Source of the DNA: Pseudomonadota bacterium
GTDB lineage: Bacteria; Desulfobacterota; Anaeroferrophillalia; Anaeroferrophillales; Tharpellaceae
Direction of reading: 5' to 3'
DNA: 47,405 nucleotides
Assembly: GCA_011049115.1 (NCBI GenBank)
Contig: DSCM01000053.1
Span: 1 to 47,405, forward strand
Shown here: one piece after another, positions 4,437-42,487 of the stretch
Position numbering within the stretch: position 1 is the stretch's first letter
Layout: every line of letters begins with the position of its first letter
Position numbers and translations under genes: made by a program
Notes under the pieces: generated by a model
What the model was told of the DNA's origin: nothing
Databases searched by the model: none
The model's input: the letters and a program-made list of their open reading frames with translations, nothing else

Positions 4437-4474
4437 GCTTGCCGTGTAACTTTTTTTTAAGCTGCTGTTTGTTT

Positions 4475-4488
4475 GTGGCAGGCGCCAC
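4475..4488. promoter_or_regulatory. Palindrome in the IclR gene leader, candidate operator
   Basis: GTGGC-AGGC-GCCAC forms a perfect 5-bp inverted repeat about 40 nt downstream of the -10 box and about 50 nt before the start codon. IclR-family proteins commonly repress their own gene through short palindromes, so autoregulation is a reasonable guess. The palindrome is short and could be chance. Confidence 0.3.
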
Positions 4489-4538
4489 TTCGCAGTATTT
4501 TTTATTCAGGGTTTGATGCGGCGGGCAAGGGGGCTCGG

Positions 4539-5366
4539 ATGATGGTTAAAAGGGAAAAATCAAATTATATAATTCAGGCCGTGGTGCACGCCCTGTCATT
4601 GCTTGAAGAATTCAGCGGGGATGTCGACGAACTTGGGGTCACTGAGCTCAGTAAGCGCCTTAAACTGCATAAAAACAACGTGTTTCGTTTGTTGGCGACG
4701 CTGGAGGAAAAGGGTTATATCGAGCAGAATAAAATCACCGAAAATTATCGTCTGGGCATCAAAAGTCTGGAGTTGGGGCAGACCTTTATTCGGCAGATGG
4801 GGGTTCTGCGTCAGGCCCATCCGGTGATGGAAAAGCTTTGCAAGGATTTACGCGAGAACGTTTATGTCGGGGTGATCCGCAATCATAATGTGGTTTATCT
4901 GGACGTGGTTGAGTCGGATCAGGCGGTGCGGGTGGTTTCCCGGGTCGGCTCGCAGCTGCCGGTCTGGTGTTCCGCCATCGGCAAGGCGCAGGTCGCCTCG
5001 ATGAATGCCGGAGAACTGGAAAAGATTCTGCCTCCGGTCAAGAACTGGGAGGCCTGTACGCCCAAATCAATTCGGGACAAGGATGCTTTTTTTAGTGAAC
5101 TGGAGCGGATTCAGGGGCAGGGCTACGCCATCGATGACGAGGAATATGATCATGACGTCAAATGCGTCGGGGCCGCGATCCGTGACTATACTAAAAGGGT
5201 GGTGGCCGGGATCAGTGTTTCCGGGCCTTCTTTCCGGTTGACGGATGAATGCATCCAGAATAAGGTCGCGCCGGCGGTCAAACAGGCGGCGGCTGAAATT
5301 TCCCGTCGTCTCGGTTATGAAATCACCCTGCAGATCGAAGAAAAAAGCGGGCCGGCATCCGTGTGA
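4539..5366 (+). CDS. IclR-family transcriptional regulator
   Basis: DNA-binding regulator of about 275 residues with the IclR layout: an N-terminal winged helix-turn-helix (about residues 10-70, containing GVTELSKRLKLHKNNVFRLL and LEEKGYIEQ) and a C-terminal GAF-like effector domain (about 85-265) with the conserved pattern VVSRVGSQLPVWCSAIGKA. The ATG at 4539 (or 4542) follows an AAGGGGG ribosome-binding site. An upstream in-frame codon at 4473 lies within the leader and is not favoured. It has its own strong promoter and a following hairpin, so it is probably monocistronic. Effector and targets are unknown; neighbouring pdxA is a possible target only by position. Confidence 0.93.
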   Translation: MMVKREKSNYIIQAVVHALSLLEEFSGDVDELGVTELSKRLKLHKNNVFRLLATLEEKGYIEQNKITENYRLGIKSLELGQTFIRQMGVLRQAHPVMEKLCKDLRENVYVGVIRNHNVVYLDVVESDQAVRVVSRVGSQLPVWCSAIGKAQVASMNAGELEKILPPVKNWEACTPKSIRDKDAFFSELERIQGQGYAIDDEEYDHDVKCVGAAIRDYTKRVVAGISVSGPSFRLTDECIQNKVAPAVKQAAAEISRRLGYEITLQIEEKSGPASV

Positions 5367-5638: not shown

Positions 5639-6883
5639 TTGAATAAGCCGTCGGCCGCAGGCCATGTCTATATTCATTTACCGTTCTGTCACTCGCGTTG
5701 CTCTTATTGTTCCTTTGTCTCGGTCGCCGTTGATCGGGTTCCGGAAGCCGAATACCTGGAGGCTCTGCTGGCCGAGCTTGATTGTCGCCGCCGGCTTTTC
5801 CCCGAGCTTTTCCACCCTCTTGCCAGCCTTTATTTCGGCGGCGGTACGCCGTCGCTTTTTTCGCCCTCTTTTTTTTCCAAGATTATCGAGTATCTGAGTG
5901 AGACCCCGGGGTTTGCCGAAGACTTCGAAATTACGCTGGAAGCCAATCCCGCCGATGTCGAGCTTTGGCGGATGGAAGGCTATCGCGCTGCCGGGGTCAA
6001 CCGGGTAAGTCTGGGCGTGCAGACCTTTGACGAGCGGGGTTTGAAAATCCTGGGCCGTCGGCATGATGCCGAGAGCGCGGTTCAGGCAATCTCCGTATTA
6101 CGTCGGGCCGGATTCGAGAATCTGAGTTTTGACCTGATCTATGCCTGGCCGGAACAAGAAATCAGTCAGCTGGAGGTCGATCTTGAACGATTGGTTTCCC
6201 TCGCGCCCGAACATGTTTCCGCCTATGTTCTCTCGCTGGAACCGGGGACTCAAATGAAGGCCGAGGTCGCGGCGGGCCGCTTGCGGTCTTTAAGCGAAGC
6301 CGTCCAGCGGGAAATGATGGAACTGGTGAGTCGCCGCCTGGAAAGGGGAGGGCTGCGGCGGTATGAAGTTTCGAACTATGCCCGGGAGCGAAAGTTTCAG
6401 GCGCAACACAACCTGGCTTGTTGGCGGATGCGGGATTTCATCGGGCTTGGCGCCGGGGCCTGCGGTAATTGGAAAGGCCGCCGTCATCAGGATTCGTGGG
6501 CCGAGCACTATTGCAATCTGGCCGATCCTTTTTTGTATATGGAAAAGCTCGCCGCCTGGCGTCGGGCCGCGGCGGCGGGTTTAGGTTTTCGACCCGAGGA
6601 CCGGCTTTGGTCGGCGGTCGGCCGGGAGAGTTCCTGGAGCGAGACCGAAACCGTGGACCGCGAGGTTTCTTTTTCGGAAAGTCTGATGATGGGTCTGCGC
6701 CTGCGTCAGGGGGTTGAACTGGCTGAGCTTAAGGACGAGTTTGGCTGCGAATTGGTAGCCGACCTGCTGTCGCGGGCCCGTCCGCTCGAGTTGGAAGGTC
6801 TGCTGGCCCGCGACCGGCATGCTCTTAAAATAACCGACCAGGGTCTTTTTTTAAGTGACTCTATCCTGGCATTTCTGTTATGA
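5639..6883 (+). CDS. hemW: Radical SAM heme chaperone HemW
   Basis: Radical SAM protein of the HemN/HemW superfamily, 414 residues. The cluster motif C17-x3-C21-x2-C24 followed by F (CHSRCSYCSF), then YFGGGTPS, and the AYVLSLEPGT segment fit HemW, which delivers heme to membrane enzymes. True coproporphyrinogen dehydrogenase HemN is longer at the N-terminus, so HemW is preferred. The frame opens at a stop at 5618, leaving TTG at 5639 as the only reasonable start; a weak GGCGGG precedes it. The C-terminal HemN-C-like part (about 340-410) ends normally. The next gene begins 55 nt later. Confidence 0.92.
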   Translation: MNKPSAAGHVYIHLPFCHSRCSYCSFVSVAVDRVPEAEYLEALLAELDCRRRLFPELFHPLASLYFGGGTPSLFSPSFFSKIIEYLSETPGFAEDFEITLEANPADVELWRMEGYRAAGVNRVSLGVQTFDERGLKILGRRHDAESAVQAISVLRRAGFENLSFDLIYAWPEQEISQLEVDLERLVSLAPEHVSAYVLSLEPGTQMKAEVAAGRLRSLSEAVQREMMELVSRRLERGGLRRYEVSNYARERKFQAQHNLACWRMRDFIGLGAGACGNWKGRRHQDSWAEHYCNLADPFLYMEKLAAWRRAAAAGLGFRPEDRLWSAVGRESSWSETETVDREVSFSESLMMGLRLRQGVELAELKDEFGCELVADLLSRARPLELEGLLARDRHALKITDQGLFLSDSILAFLL

Positions 6884-6938: not shown

Positions 6939-7358
6939 ATGAGCGCAAACGCCCGGCAGGCAATGACGGAATTTAAGGTAGACACGGAAAATCTTTATCG
7001 GGAAGAAAGCGTGACCGATCTCAAGGTCGCCTCGATCAGGGTTCTGATCCCGATTCACCCCGACGGCAGAGATGAGCTCGATCGCGACCGGGTCTATGTC
7101 GGCAGCACCCAGTTGATGTCGCCCGAAGGCCCGATACCGCTGCAGGCGCCGCTGCCCGCGGAGACTCTGGAGGAGGCGATGGCGGTTTTTCCCGAGGCGA
7201 TGGCGGTTTTTCCCGAGGCGATGCGCCGGGCCCTGAACGACATGGTCGAAAAAAATCAAGGAAATGCAACAACAGCAGAAAATGCAGAGTATGGAAAAAT
7301 CACGGATTATCATTCCCGGTCGCTGAGTCGGCCGCCGCTGAAAAATTTGGTCGGGTAA
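6939..7358 (+). CDS. Small conserved cytoplasmic protein, duplicated segment and frameshifted C-terminus
   Basis: 139 residues as read, with no signal peptide or membrane segment. The first 100 residues (EFKVDTENLYREESVTDLKV, VYVGSTQLMSPEGPIPLQAP, TLEEAMAVFPEAM) resemble an uncharacterised small soluble protein family I recall from deltaproteobacteria; function unknown. Two oddities are present. A 21-bp unit encoding EAMAVFP is tandemly duplicated (7173-7214). After a run of seven A (7249-7255) the frame gives an unlikely tail, whereas the +1 frame gives IKEMQQQQKM...SRIIIPGR and stops at 7326, which looks like the native end. Six A would restore it. The ATG at 6939 has a GGAGAGA ribosome-binding site. 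Either a mutation, an assembly error or slippage at poly-A. Confidence 0.75.
   Translation: MSANARQAMTEFKVDTENLYREESVTDLKVASIRVLIPIHPDGRDELDRDRVYVGSTQLMSPEGPIPLQAPLPAETLEEAMAVFPEAMAVFPEAMRRALNDMVEKNQGNATTAENAEYGKITDYHSRSLSRPPLKNLVG
7173..7223 (+). repeat. 21-bp tandem repeat inside a coding region
   Basis: Two exact 21-nt copies (7173-7193, 7194-7214) and a 9-nt partial third copy (7215-7223). Each full copy encodes EAMAVFP, so the duplication is in frame. Exact identity suggests a recent slippage or unequal-recombination event. Confidence 0.9.
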
Positions 7359-7455
7359 AAAATTGGCCGCCGATTAATCGTTGGGCTGAGTTGTGGTGCC
7401 GGATTGATAAGGCCGGTTGTCTCGCGTCGTTGGCGGAGGGGGCTGGAGGAAATTT

Positions 7456-8451
7456 ATGAAAATCGCCAACCGTCTGAGTTCCCTGGTGGGAGCGACCCCG
7501 CTTTTGCGCCTTGATTTTTTAAGCCGCGAGAGCGGCGCGGAAGTGGTCGCCAAACTGGAGGCTTTTAACCCGCTTTCCAGTATCAAGGATCGGCTTGCGG
7601 TCGCCATGATTGATGCCGCCGAGGCGGACGGCGAATTGCTTCCCGGCGGTCTGATTATCGAGCCGACCAGTGGTAACACGGGTGTCGGCCTGGCCTTTGT
7701 CGCCGCCGAACGGGGTTATGGCCTGCTGCTGACCATGCCGGAGACGATGAGCCTGGAACGGCGCCGCTTGTTGTGGGCCTTGGGGGCGAAGCTGGTTCTG
7801 ACTCCCGGTCCTGAAGGTATGAAAGGGGCCATCGCCGAAGCTTGTCGGTTGCAAGGGCAGAACCCCGGCAGCTTCATGCCGCAGCAATTTACCAACCCCG
7901 CCAATCCTGAATGCCATCGCCGAACCACCGCGCTTGAAATCTGGCGTGATTGCGGCGGCCGGATCGATTTTCTGGTGGCCGGGGTCGGAACCGGCGGGAC
8001 GATTACCGGGTGCGGCGAGGTGCTTAAGGAAAAAAAGCCCGGGCTTAGGGTGATCGCGGTCGAGCCGGCGGAGTCGGCCGTGCTCTCCGGAGGCGAGCCC
8101 GGACCGCATCGCATTCAGGGGATCGGAGCCGGTTTCGTGCCGCCGGTGCTGAATCCGGCGGTCGTCGATGAAATCGTTAAAATATCCAGTGACGAAGCCG
8201 CCGCCATGACGCGCCGCTTGGCGACCGGCATGGGGCTGTTGGTCGGCATTTCCTCCGGCGCCGCCGCCTGCGCCGCCCTGAAAATCGCCGGCCGTCCCGA
8301 AAGCCGGGGGAAAATGATAATTGTGATCTTTCCCGACAGCGGCGAGCGCTATCTTTCCGGCGAGCTTTTCGCAAACGGCGCGGGCAAGGATGAAGGCCGT
8401 TCGATGAGTCGTCACGTGGTTCAGGGTGACAATCTTTGTCACCCTGACTGA
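7456..8451 (+). CDS. cysK: Cysteine synthase (O-acetylserine sulfhydrylase)
   Basis: PLP-dependent fold-type II enzyme making L-cysteine from O-acetylserine and sulfide; cytoplasmic dimer. 331 residues. Visible: PLP lysine K44 in NPLSSIKDR, the substrate loop PTSGNTG (70-76), the phosphate-binding GTGGTITG (179-186), and GISSGAA near residue 260, where serine contacts the PLP ring nitrogen. The ATG at 7456 has GGAGGA at 7445-7450; an in-frame ATG at 7417 lacks such a site. CysK versus CysM cannot be settled by eye. The last codons lie in a perfect inverted repeat that forms part of the 3' end signal, giving an unusual ...CHPD tail. Confidence 0.93.
8421..8447 (+). terminator. Perfect hairpin overlapping the cysK stop region
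   Basis: A 12-bp perfect inverted repeat with a 3-nt loop (8421-8432 / 8436-8447) lies inside the last codons of cysK, ending just before the TGA. No T-tract follows, so it may be a Rho-associated or mRNA-stabilising hairpin, or a protein-binding palindrome. Confidence 0.5.
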
Positions 8452-8607: not shown

Positions 8608-8751
8608 GTATAGTAATGCAAAAGCAGTGGTATGAAGTGAGCGCTGACTGCTTGAACAAAAAGAATTTTGTTGGTCGGTTATTCATGTTCTAAAGGAATG
8701 TTTTTTTTAACCCGTAGATCTTTTAAGCAACGTTTGAAAAGGAGCAAAGTC

Positions 8752-9201
8752 ATGAAGAAGACACGTAAGAACAACCAAGGTTTCACGCTTATCGAATTAA
8801 TGATCGTCGTCGCCATCATCGGTATTCTGGCCGCCGTGGCGATCCCCATGTACAAAAACTATATTCAGAAGGCCAGGGTCGCGAGCACGGTAATTCCCAC
8901 GATCCATGCAGTGCAGACCAATATCGCCGCTTACTATGCGACGCACGATGGCGAGTTGCCGACAGCAGATACTTTGCTTACGGCCTTTATCAAGGATGCC
9001 GACACTTCGGCGGTCGACTGGAATACCGCTAAAACCAGTGGTGCTACTTATCAGTTCACGGTGAATACTCTCTCCAGCGCTGTCGGAGACATCGCCAAAG
9101 CATACGGTACTACTTTGACGGCTACTCCTACGACCTCCGATGAGAAAATTACCGGATGGAAGCTGGGCGGCGCTTTTGGCGATGCCGTTGGACTCAAGTA
9201 A
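8752..9201 (+). CDS. pilA: Type IV major pilin PilA
   Basis: Type IVa pilin precursor of 149 residues. A 10-residue basic leader ends in G10, then F11 begins the mature N-terminal helix [20 protein letters not shown] with the essential glutamate at mature position 5 (E15). Cleavage and N-methylation by prepilin peptidase at G10/F11 is expected, with the helix buried in the inner membrane and then the pilus core. The globular part lacks the disulfide cysteines of many pilins and ends in [10 protein letters not shown]. The ATG at 8752 has AAGGAG at 8739-8744. It is preceded by a sigma-54 promoter and followed by an intrinsic terminator, so it can be expressed at high level on its own. The mature 139 residues are far longer than the truncated electron-transferring pilins of Geobacter. 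Confidence 0.95.
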
Positions 9202-9311: not shown

Positions 9312-11732
9312 ATGAAAAGAGATAGCCTGTATTGTCGGAGCGGTATTTTCTCGGGTCTTGCCCGTGAATCATTCCTGTTCTACGCAATCGCGTTCATCAT
9401 CCTGCCGATCATGGCTTTTTCGGCCTATTCTAACACTTTCAATTCACCTCTGATTCTCGATGATTATCATAGTTTTATTGACGAACCTAAAATTTATATA
9501 GATACCTTTGACCGGAATTCACTGCTTAAATTGTCGGAGACCAAGTTTGGCCTAAAGCGCTATCTTCCCTTGCTAACATTTTCTCTAGATCATCTGCGTG
9601 GTCGGGGTCGTTTGTCCGTGTATCACTTTACGAACTTGACCATCCATATTTTCGCATATTTAATGCTTTTATTTCTGATCAGTACATTGTTTAAAGTATT
9701 TTCCATTGATAGTCCAAAACAAACCAAGATCCCTAACCTCGATATTCTCATTGTTTTCGTCTCCGGTATGTGGCTGTTATGTCCTGTGCAGACCAATGCC
9801 GTAACTTATGTTGTCCAGCGCATGACGGCTTTGATGAGTTTGTTTTATTTTTTGTCCGTGGCGGCGTATCTTTTTGCCCGCATCGACCTGGAAAAAAGAC
9901 AAAAAACAAGCTTGAAATCCATGCTGTTTTTCGCGGTTTCCCTGATGTCGGCCGTTATGGCGTTCTTAAGTAAAGAAAATTCGGCGATGTTGCCGCTGAT
10001 GTTGTTTGTATCAGAGTTGCTTTTTTTTCGCTCCACAAGAAGGAAATTAAGAACCTGGCTTGGCAACCGGAGAATTATGGTAGTCTTGAGTTTGGTCTCG
10101 GTTCTTGTTTTTGTGTTTGGGTACAAATTTCTTTTGCCCGGCATTCTCGATGGTTACGCCAGTCGTCATTTCTCATGGTCGGAGAGACTGATGACTGAAG
10201 CCCGGGTCGTGGTCACCTATTTTTCCCTTCTCTTACTGCCCCTGCCGTCTCGTTTAAATCTTGAGCATGATGTAATTGTTTCAACCGGAATATTCTCTCC
10301 ACCGACTACCTTTTTTTCCATCATTTTTATTGTGGGCATGGTCTCGGCCGCATACTGGATGCCGGAACGGCAAACATTGCTGAAATTTGGTTTGGCTTGG
10401 TTTTTTATGAATCTTGTAATCGAGTCAAGCATCGTACCTCTTGAACTGATGTTTGAGCATCGCTTATATCTTCCTTCTGTGGGAATCTTTATCATTCTGG
10501 GCATTACGGTTTTTAGTCTGATCAAAAAAATTCGCGGAAATCTATCGGATGATAAGGTCAGAAAAATTCTGATTTCAATTGTTCTTCTGGTTTTTTCAGG
10601 TTTAACTTTGTTAACTTATCAACGTAATGTCGATTGGCGCAGTTCGGTTTCAATTTATCGTGATTGTGCTGAAAAAGCCCCCTTGAAAGCGAGAAATTAC
10701 GCCGGGTTATCCAAGGCTTACAGTTCTGAAGGAAAGTATGAGGAGGCGATAGCGGCCGCTGAACAGGCGATCAGTCTTTCCCGGAAAAACTACGAGGAAT
10801 ACTGGGCTGCGGCATGTAATCTGCTGGCGGCTGAAATATCGGTAAACGGTTATCTCGGTGCAATTGCAAGAGGAGAAGCTCTGCTTGCCGGCGCCCCCAA
10901 GGAGGCAAAAAGAGATGCGTTGCCCTTTTTCCTTGGTAATCTAGGCATAGCCTATTTCAAGGTAGGAGAATACGAGAAAGCCATTTCCACGCTAAATGAT
11001 TCTTTGCGATATTCATTGTTATTTAAAGACCAGTCCGCGACAGTCAAGACCATGGCGCGTTTATTTCTGGCCCATAAGAAACTTTTTGAAGAAAATAAGC
11101 AAATCAGTTCTAACCAAGAGTTTGAAAAATGTGCTAATGAATATGCAAGTTTAAAGCTGACAGACGTATTGATTGAATGTTGTGAGTTTGAGCGGGCTTT
11201 GAATGTCTGTCGCGCCGGCCTGAGTGCTAATGGTGAAAATTCTCAATTGAAAGCCAGGCTGGAAAACATAGAAAAAACCATTGCATCCAATAATCTGCAG
11301 AAAGATAAGGGAACCTTGCAGGAAAAATATTTTTTTAAGGCTTGGCACAGCTCTTCTCATTTTATGATGGGACTGATTTATTTTTTACAAAAATATAATT
11401 TCTCCTTGGATCCTTTGCTGGCGTATTGCTTTCACAACCTGGAGGAAAAAGATGTTTTTCCCGTAGACTTTAACTTACTGTATTCCTGGTATTTCTTTAA
11501 AAAAAACGACTATCTCACGGCCTTACAAAAAATAGAGGCGGCTTTATCCCTGGATCCATTTTATGCCCAGTTATGGGTTAATAAAGGAATGTATCTGCTG
11601 GCGATGGGTGAGCGGGATAAAGCCGGCCGGTCCCTCAAGAGAGCCTTGGAGCTTTTTCCGGCTTATCCTCAAAAAAATAAGGTTCTGGCCATGATACAGC
11701 TGGTTGATAGTGATGGTGAAGTAAGGTTCTGA
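9312..11732 (+). CDS. GT-C-like membrane glycosyltransferase with C-terminal TPRs
   Basis: 806-residue polytopic protein. About ten hydrophobic segments occupy roughly residues 20-460, followed by a soluble C-terminal half with TPR-like helices (about 460-530, 545-600, 730-800). LILDDYHSF (D50-D51) in the first external loop resembles the catalytic acidic pair of GT-C transferases, and YHFTNLTIHI plus PVQTNAVTYVVQRMTAL resemble the TMTC/DUF1736 type of protein O-glycosyltransferase-like proteins. GT-C enzymes use polyprenyl-linked sugar outside the cytoplasm. Placement between two pilin genes suggests pilin modification. The ATG at 9312 has only a weak ribosome-binding site. Fold is fairly sure; substrate is inference. 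Confidence 0.75.
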   Translation: MKRDSLYCRSGIFSGLARESFLFYAIAFIILPIMAFSAYSNTFNSPLILDDYHSFIDEPKIYIDTFDRNSLLKLSETKFGLKRYLPLLTFSLDHLRGRGRLSVYHFTNLTIHIFAYLMLLFLISTLFKVFSIDSPKQTKIPNLDILIVFVSGMWLLCPVQTNAVTYVVQRMTALMSLFYFLSVAAYLFARIDLEKRQKTSLKSMLFFAVSLMSAVMAFLSKENSAMLPLMLFVSELLFFRSTRRKLRTWLGNRRIMVVLSLVSVLVFVFGYKFLLPGILDGYASRHFSWSERLMTEARVVVTYFSLLLLPLPSRLNLEHDVIVSTGIFSPPTTFFSIIFIVGMVSAAYWMPERQTLLKFGLAWFFMNLVIESSIVPLELMFEHRLYLPSVGIFIILGITVFSLIKKIRGNLSDDKVRKILISIVLLVFSGLTLLTYQRNVDWRSSVSIYRDCAEKAPLKARNYAGLSKAYSSEGKYEEAIAAAEQAISLSRKNYEEYWAAACNLLAAEISVNGYLGAIARGEALLAGAPKEAKRDALPFFLGNLGIAYFKVGEYEKAISTLNDSLRYSLLFKDQSATVKTMARLFLAHKKLFEENKQISSNQEFEKCANEYASLKLTDVLIECCEFERALNVCRAGLSANGENSQLKARLENIEKTIASNNLQKDKGTLQEKYFFKAWHSSSHFMMGLIYFLQKYNFSLDPLLAYCFHNLEEKDVFPVDFNLLYSWYFFKKNDYLTALQKIEAALSLDPFYAQLWVNKGMYLLAMGERDKAGRSLKRALELFPAYPQKNKVLAMIQLVDSDGEVRF

Positions 11733-11808
11733 GGTCTTGTTGTTTTTTAGCTCGGCCCTGTTTTTTATGGTGCATTTTTCTGGATTAATGTGGTTGCGGA
11801 GGGGAAAA

Positions 11809-12249
11809 ATGAGTGAGAACAAAGCAGTTGATGGTTTTACCCTGGTTGAGTTGATGATTACCGTCGCTATCCTGGCCGTGTTGGCGGCCGTCGCCATTCC
11901 GTTGTATGCAAACTATGTCGACCGCGCCAAGCAGGCGGATGCGATTATCGGCCTGAAAGCGGCGCAGATGGCCCAGGAACAATTTTTCAGCGAGAATGGT
12001 GTTTATTCGAATACGATTGATATCCTGCCGGGTTTTGCCGATGCGTCGGTAAATAACTCCTATGTCAAGGGTGAATATACGCTCAGTGCGAACGCCACCA
12101 CAGCGCCATCCTTTTCGATTGTGGCGGTCAGGGTTGTCGGTGGCGCGACCGATCGCTGGACGATCAGTCATACCAATATCGACCCGGTCTGTGATACCTC
12201 GGTGGCAGGGATTAAGGGGTATTCGGTTTTCAGATGGATCTTTGATTGA
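11809..12249 (+). CDS. Second type IV pilin-like protein (PilE/minor pilin type)
   Basis: 146-residue prepilin: a short leader ending in G9, then FTLVELMITVAILAVLAAVA with glutamate at mature position 5 (E14). The C-terminal head has one visible cysteine (CDTSVAG) and ends SVFRWIFD, different from PilA, so it is not a recent duplicate. The ATG at 11809 follows a strong GGAGGGG; an upstream in-frame ATG at 11737 would add a hydrophobic stretch and is not favoured. It lies about 75 nt after the GT-C-like gene and probably shares its transcript. It could be a minor pilin, a pseudopilin or an alternative major subunit. Confidence 0.9.
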   Translation: MSENKAVDGFTLVELMITVAILAVLAAVAIPLYANYVDRAKQADAIIGLKAAQMAQEQFFSENGVYSNTIDILPGFADASVNNSYVKGEYTLSANATTAPSFSIVAVRVVGGATDRWTISHTNIDPVCDTSVAGIKGYSVFRWIFD

Positions 12250-40912: not shown

Positions 40913-41128
40913 AGATTATATCAAACTACTCGGAGGGCTCCTGCACTATGATAAGTTTAAGGCGGCCGCCAAGTGGTTATTTTTTGCGGTCTCGGCCGGG
41001 CGGCAAGGGAAGATTGGGGTTGAATCACCACTTCCGGCGCGTATTTTTTGTCCAAGGGTGAGACGGCTCAATTTTTTCGGTCTTGGCCGGAATCCTGAAA
41101 TGAATTTTTATGAAAGGCGGGTATGGGT

Positions 41129-42487
41129 ATGAGAAACGGTCGGATGTTGAGCTCTTTGGCAATGTTTCTGGTTTTCTGTGCTTTACCGGGGTTGCTCGGC
41201 GTCGGCTTCGCGGCCTCGGCCCTCGACGAGGGTCCGCGCTGGTCGCGATCTTGTCGGTGAGCGCGGAACCACTTGATACGATCGAATGGTTGTCGCAAAG
41301 GCCGGAGGACGGTTTGGCCCTGATGGTTTCCGGTCCGGGCGAGGTGAGTCTCAAAAGACGTTTTTCTCCCGGCGAAGAGGTTGTTTTTTCGTCTCGCGAC
41401 GATAACGGCGATCCCCTGCCGGATGGAAATTACAACTATGAGTTTTATGTGTTGCCGGCCTTCGGCGCGCTCAGAAGCGGCGCGGATGACGAAGCGGCGG
41501 TTGCGGAGGATGACTCAGGCCCCAACGTGCAATGCGGGTCGTTCGCCATTATCCAGGGAGAGATGGTCATTCCCGTCGAAGGCGAAGGTGAAAACGACAA
41601 TGCAAGATTGCGGGGCGACATGACATCTTGCATTACGACGATGTGATCGTGACCGGCAGTCAATGTATCGGTTTTGACTGCGCCGATGGCGAAAACTTTG
41701 GTTGCTCTACCCTGAAGCTCAAGTAAAACAATCTGCAAATCCTGTTCGAGGACACCAGCACCGGCACTTTTTCGACCACCGACTGGAGAATTCTGGTCAA
41801 CGATGCGACCAGCGGCGGCGCCGGCTATTTCACCATCTGGGATGTCGACGCCGGCCGTCGTCCCTTTACGATCGAGGCCGGGGCTCCGGCCCATGCCCTG
41901 TATGTCGAGGATTACGGGCGGGTGGGGTTGGGAACCTCAATTCTCTACGTCGAACTGCATATCGTCGATGGCGACAGCCCGACGGTGCGGTTGGATCAGA
42001 ATGGGTCAAATGGATGGGCCCCGCAGAAATGGGATCTTTGTGGCAATGAAACTAATTTTTTCATTCGCGACGTTACTAATGGTTCCGCGCTCTGTTTTCG
42101 CATTCAGCCTTCGACGCCCAGCAATACCCTTTGCTGAAAGCCACCGGCAACGTCGGTATCGGTACTTGGGCTCCAACATGCAAGCTGGACGTGGACGGCG
42201 ATATCAGGGCCAGCGGCGGCCTGGTGGTGGGTTCAAGTCGGGATCTGAAGTTAGACATTGAAGAGCTGCAATCCGAGGACGCCCTGAAAACCTTGCTCGC
42301 GCTCAACCCGGTCAACTACCGTTACAAGGCCGATTTGCAGGAAAAGAGGGTCGGTTTTATCGCCGAGAAGGTGCCGGAGCTGGTCGCCATGAACGATCAC
42401 CAGGGCCTGAGCACAATGGATATCGTCGCCGCCCTGACCAAGGTGGTGCAGGAGCAGCGGAAAAACATTGACAAGTTACGGCTTTAG
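41129..42487 (+). pseudogene. Decayed secreted protein with tail-fibre/S74-type C-terminus
   Basis: A signal peptide frame (ATG 41129 with AGGCGGG upstream; SLAMFLVFCALPGLLGVGFA) shifts near 41235 into EPLDTIEWLSQRPEDG... (to 41646), then shifts near 41600-41630 into HYDDVIVTGSQCIGFDC, meets a TAA at 41724 in LKLK*NNL (GAA to TAA by one base), reads on to 42137, and shifts again into LLKATGNVGIGT. The end, SSRDLKLDIEELQSEDALKT...GFIAEKVPELV, is the intramolecular-chaperone (peptidase S74/tail-fibre) domain. Three frameshifts plus one stop make it clearly non-functional. Confidence 0.88.

Follow-up and report, generated by a model that had tools for sequence, protein, structure and literature searches.

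The small open reading frame (ORF) at 6939-7358 (+), judged from its sequence, is a damaged rather than an intact member of a family of about 120 residues, and the feature looks like an unremarkable frameshift of recent date, or else a slip in the assembly, and not like a two-product switch. Among the readings weighed below, we lean towards a real and recent one-base expansion of an A run in a dispensable gene. The window is the whole stretch of 47,405 nucleotides that was analysed; the features that the argument draws on are as follows.

6939-7358, + strand: small-protein ORF in the 0 frame, 139 amino acids; of family type as far as residue 105 (K), followed by 34 residues foreign to the family
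7173-7214, + strand: tandem duplication of a 21-bp unit (EAMAVFP) in two exact in-frame copies, which none of the 12 aligned relatives has
7249-7255, + strand: A7 run, the point where the frame leaves the family
7254-7358, + strand: 0-frame tail NQGNATT...KNLVG, then stop; without conservation in relatives
7255-7326, + strand: displaced family ending IKEMQ...SRIIIPGR, out of frame with the ORF
5639-6883, + strand: hemW-type radical SAM gene, upstream neighbour, intact
7456-8451, + strand: cysK-type cysteine synthase, downstream neighbour, intact (the listed ORF opens at 7417; we place the start at the ATG near 7456)

A family ending displaced from its reading frame

Past the A7 run, the next frame reads IKEMQQQQKMQSMEKSRIIIPGR, with a stop at 7324-7326. 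The S-R-I-I-x-P-G C-terminus typical of the family is found in this frame only and is absent from the main frame of the ORF. When a profile of 52 relatives was run over the whole genome, it matched the core at 6939-7262 (E 6.2e-38) and, directly after this main match, the displaced tail as a separate one (7237-7323, profile positions 92-119 of 119, E 6e-4); the ORF is the sole copy in the genome. Since the profile picks up the displaced tail independently beside the core, the switch of frame is not due to chance. The first-pass annotation had claimed a poly-A frameshift here, and the ORF, the A7 at 7249-7255 and the +1-frame ending in SRIIIPGR are all confirmed. The ORF shows one mark of a frameshift pseudogene, in that an indel, as judged against the homologues, has left the conserved ending whole but in a different frame; a true pseudogene would also have this indel in the organism and not just in the assembly. 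The A7 run by itself is unremarkable, as the window contains 36 homopolymers of at least seven nucleotides, 11 of which are A7.

The ending remains in frame in the relatives

We searched 16 genomes of the same bacterial family, 13 of which match when the window's own is counted, leaving 12 relatives. Ten of their copies are complete, one (G003) runs off its contig and has the final 32 residues on a second one, and one (G004) is truncated at the 5' end. In all 12 the ending follows on from the VEK codons without a change of frame. The A run is A6 in four of them and shorter in the other eight, owing to synonymous use of GAG or AAG, which leaves A4 or less next to the junction; none has A7. The proposal of one extra A is thus supported by all 12 relatives, each combining a run of A6 or shorter with an ending in the main frame.

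The first-pass annotation had also asked whether relatives encode the 0-frame tail. In the 12 relatives it is not conserved: its counterpart stops after one codon in 5 of 12 and within 28 codons in 11 of 12. A conserved overlapping frame was considered as a source of the tail and was rejected, because the relatives' shifted frame closes early. Residues 105-133 of the 0-frame product show weak similarity (48%) to one relative (L012), which reflects the same DNA read out of frame there, the shifted frame of L012 being open for 42 codons by chance.

An unnamed family with a strict C-terminal motif

Outside the bacterial family the same ending recurs. Among 80 wider homologue loci, which include 9 of the 12 relatives, the I-I-x-P ending is in frame in 78 and the other two are contig ends; I115 and P118 are invariant across the 52 rows of our family alignment (A4). 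The protein family occurs in 46 of 297 genomes of a phylum-wide sample; of the loci matched in that sample, only the window's is broken up over two neighbouring frames of a single contig. Two further matches with an internal stop (G144 and G293) on reading both just end with the motif. By record titles, the family is also present in several other phyla. Among cultured relatives, Desulfosarcina widdelii and Desulfospira joergensenii have an intact homologue (L033, L067).

The ORF retains the core residues of this family: L18, E21, E22, the T-D-L-K stretch at 25-28 (T25, D26, L27, K28), P37, R48, G63, P66 and A79 are all present, and the strand regions are likewise shared with alignment A4. By alignment, the otherwise invariant D45 is E in the window's protein. 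Two things set the ORF apart from the family: seven residues are duplicated close to where the long helix begins, and the ending lies in another frame.

This family of about 120 residues from Desulfobacterota and other phyla has no name and no Pfam or NCBIfam model. A Pfam search of the ORF gave no match, with only weak matches for relatives (best E 0.0026), an NCBIfam search of the ORF and relatives gave no convincing model, and a PDB search found no sequence relative. The protein is probably cytosolic.

The predicted model of a relative, based on the 52-row alignment, comprises four strands and one long helix (76-112) at a mean pLDDT of 83.2. The frameshift falls after residue 97 of this relative and, according to the model, would remove about 15 helix residues together with the ending. 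Foldseek with the same model returned no match at E <=0.001. The best rows of a VIA-align comparison reached Z 5.1 and below, which may reflect only a common arrangement; SecB, thought of from the topology, was not among the 50 rows shown. Gene context was compared over 52 loci. One group is widespread among them and very probably consists of the family's own members, which at one locus seem merged into a longer ORF; the other groups occur in at most 6. A scan of genome contigs with a single protein as query found nothing.

A simple pattern count finds a second similar motif just ahead of the end in 7 of the 80 homologues (L066, L073, L074, L075, L078, L082 and L085), where an R/K/Q-I-x-x-P motif occurs twice close to the C-terminus. 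As a guess, such a doubled motif would fit a docking peptide.

Both lesions appear young

The first-pass annotation further described an exact in-frame 21-bp duplication, which is confirmed with copies at 7173-7193 and 7194-7214. It is the only exact tandem repeat in the window with a unit above 9 bp (units of 9-79 were tested). The first nine bases of the unit recur at 7215-7223, right after copy 2, so that the period-21 match extends over 30 nt; this recurrence is expected from slipped pairing of two 9-bp direct repeats. Slippage between such repeats would have produced the duplication as an event separate from the A7 run.

The displaced ending differs from that of the relatives almost only at synonymous positions. 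IKEMQ was compared with 11 relatives and has 2-4 synonymous differences from them but no nonsynonymous one from any; SRIIIPGR, compared with ten relatives after L005 was dropped because of a contig end, shows no nonsynonymous difference from five and 1-2 from the other five, with 3-6 synonymous ones. In the core, the window and nine of 11 relatives are separated by a dS of 1.0-2.4 (infinite for one) and a dN of 0.17-0.28; L005 and L012 were dropped here, as the segment is cut at a different place. The displaced tail thus looks as if it had been under selection until lately. A rough, unsimulated calculation with some 30 nonsynonymous sites and a distance along the window branch of no less than 0.5 per neutral site suggests that zero changes would permit neutrality for at most about one-fifth of the window branch. 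The two 21-bp copies are identical, which suggests that the duplication is young too. From the mostly synonymous differences in the tail and the identical copies, both the A-run insertion and the duplication look recent.

Origin of the frameshift

We consider it somewhat probable that a dispensable gene has really, and recently, gained one base in its A run. An ancestral A6 would have become A7 by replication slippage, and ribosomes that read past residue 105 would then leave the family frame and append 34 residues unrelated to the family. Missing from the product would be the final stretch of the long C-terminal helix as well as the conserved SRIIxPG ending. Both the reality of the insertion and its inactivating or weakening effect on the protein are steps that we infer. 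The main rival, which we regard as a possible but less likely account, is an assembly or base-calling error, in which case the true run would be A6 and the gene intact save for the seven-residue duplication. A one-base homopolymer difference is a typical sequencing indel, the genome is a draft in 143 contigs, and both tail and core are conserved and show few nonsynonymous changes. Beyond the two lesions and the D45 to E exchange the gene shows no sign of decay, a state that an assembly error would account for just as well. However, the window has 20 other homopolymers of 7-8 within long ORFs that run on without interruption, and seven syntenic neighbour genes are unbroken, which together argue against a generally error-prone assembly, and the same gene carries a second change of another type, the duplication. 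A run of seven As is also short for such errors with short reads, although the platform used for this genome may differ. The window's genus is represented by one genome, and the contig could be a mixed-strain one that carries a minority allele. It is unlikely, on the other hand, that the product of the 0 frame, new tail included, is a variant both stable and functional in a lineage that does not need the helix end and SRIIxPG. Nearly all invariant residues are kept in the core up to residue 105 and core dN is low relative to a dS of 1.0 or more, as would suit such a variant; yet this low dN mostly dates from before the lesion, the new tail is without a conserved counterpart, and each of the 78 uncut homologues in the wider set has kept the ending.

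While one extra A in the first-pass interpretation stands, its suggestion that transcriptional slippage makes both products is disfavoured, and we judge either this or ribosomal frameshifting at A7 to be very unlikely. The A run does lie exactly at the frame junction, with both frames open past it, and precedents with long runs exist. In Citrobacter rodentium tssM1, as described in the part of that report used here, an A run likewise sits where truncated and full-length readings meet; it is an A11 with slippage measured at 20-25%, and both forms are needed (PMC4256274). The present run, in contrast, is an A7, is unconserved and would have to lose rather than gain a base, and it is known from sequence alone. 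Homopolymer frameshifts in genes of Blochmannia, discussed together with Buchnera, resemble our case in that a one-base A-run indel occurs in an otherwise well-conserved gene, with early decay or rescue by slippage considered, as here; by the sections of that work drawn on, these are extremely AT-biased endosymbiont genomes with many A runs of at least nine, whereas here we see a single A7 and no such setting (PMC3017870). For Escherichia coli RNA polymerase, the consulted portion of one study gives slippage as undetectable on fewer than eight As, with insertions threefold over deletions (PMC6260861); A7 falls below this minimum of A8, although the host polymerase may differ, and the base loss needed here is the less favoured direction. 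Selection against A/T runs sets in at about nine in many genomes, varying among bacteria, according to the part of a second study at hand (PMC1088944), and by the thresholds of these two sources a gene using slippage would have a run of 8-9 or more As. Such a gene would also have a conserved run and two-frame layout; here none of the 12 relatives has A7, the run is down to A4 or less by the junction in 8 of 12 relatives, and the shifted frame closes after a single codon in five. The in-frame A-AAA-AAT heptamer, a motif favouring -1 frameshifting, would shift ribosomes into the third frame and not into the family frame. We think it more doubtful still that A7 acts as a low-level leak that keeps some full-length protein while most of the product carries the new tail; were this true, it would account for a displaced ending that still looks selected.

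Gene loss commonly begins with a homopolymer frameshift, and assemblies commonly contain such frameshifts in error; as a mechanism the case carries little weight. For annotation, the gene should carry a flag for possible disruption, and the case points to a small-protein family that is conserved but unnamed and whose C-terminal motif is strict.

Dispensability and neighbouring genes

A profile search did not find the gene in G001 and G002, both genomes of the sister genus, one of them 94% complete, and gave no match in G014 (68% complete). G004 (97% complete) has a remnant from residue ~59 on, outside the hemW-cysK context. The gene appears to have been lost or broken more than once in the bacterial family, although incomplete genomes could explain some of the absences; repeated loss or breakage fits decay in the window, and the gene seems dispensable in this bacterial family.

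The G004 copy (L014/L104) adjoins repeat-like sequence, presumably of the REP type, which occurs once, elsewhere, in the window's genome; the copy lies behind what we take to be a RelE/RelB-like pair. In the window, an IclR-type regulator at 4473-5366 (+) is 89-93% identical to three relatives, and the other genes of the block are mostly at 50-75%. A second apparently broken gene lies at 41110-42487 (+), where three successive frames hold pieces of seemingly one protein, ending in a Peptidase_S74 domain with an in-frame stop; its junctions are unlike homopolymer indels, and the genome holds no other copy of the middle piece. A large ORF at 9312-11732, probably a membrane protein, is flanked by ORFs at 8668-9201 and 11737-12249 (+), which by their motifs (GFTLIELM and GFTLVELM, respectively) are presumably type IV pilin-like.
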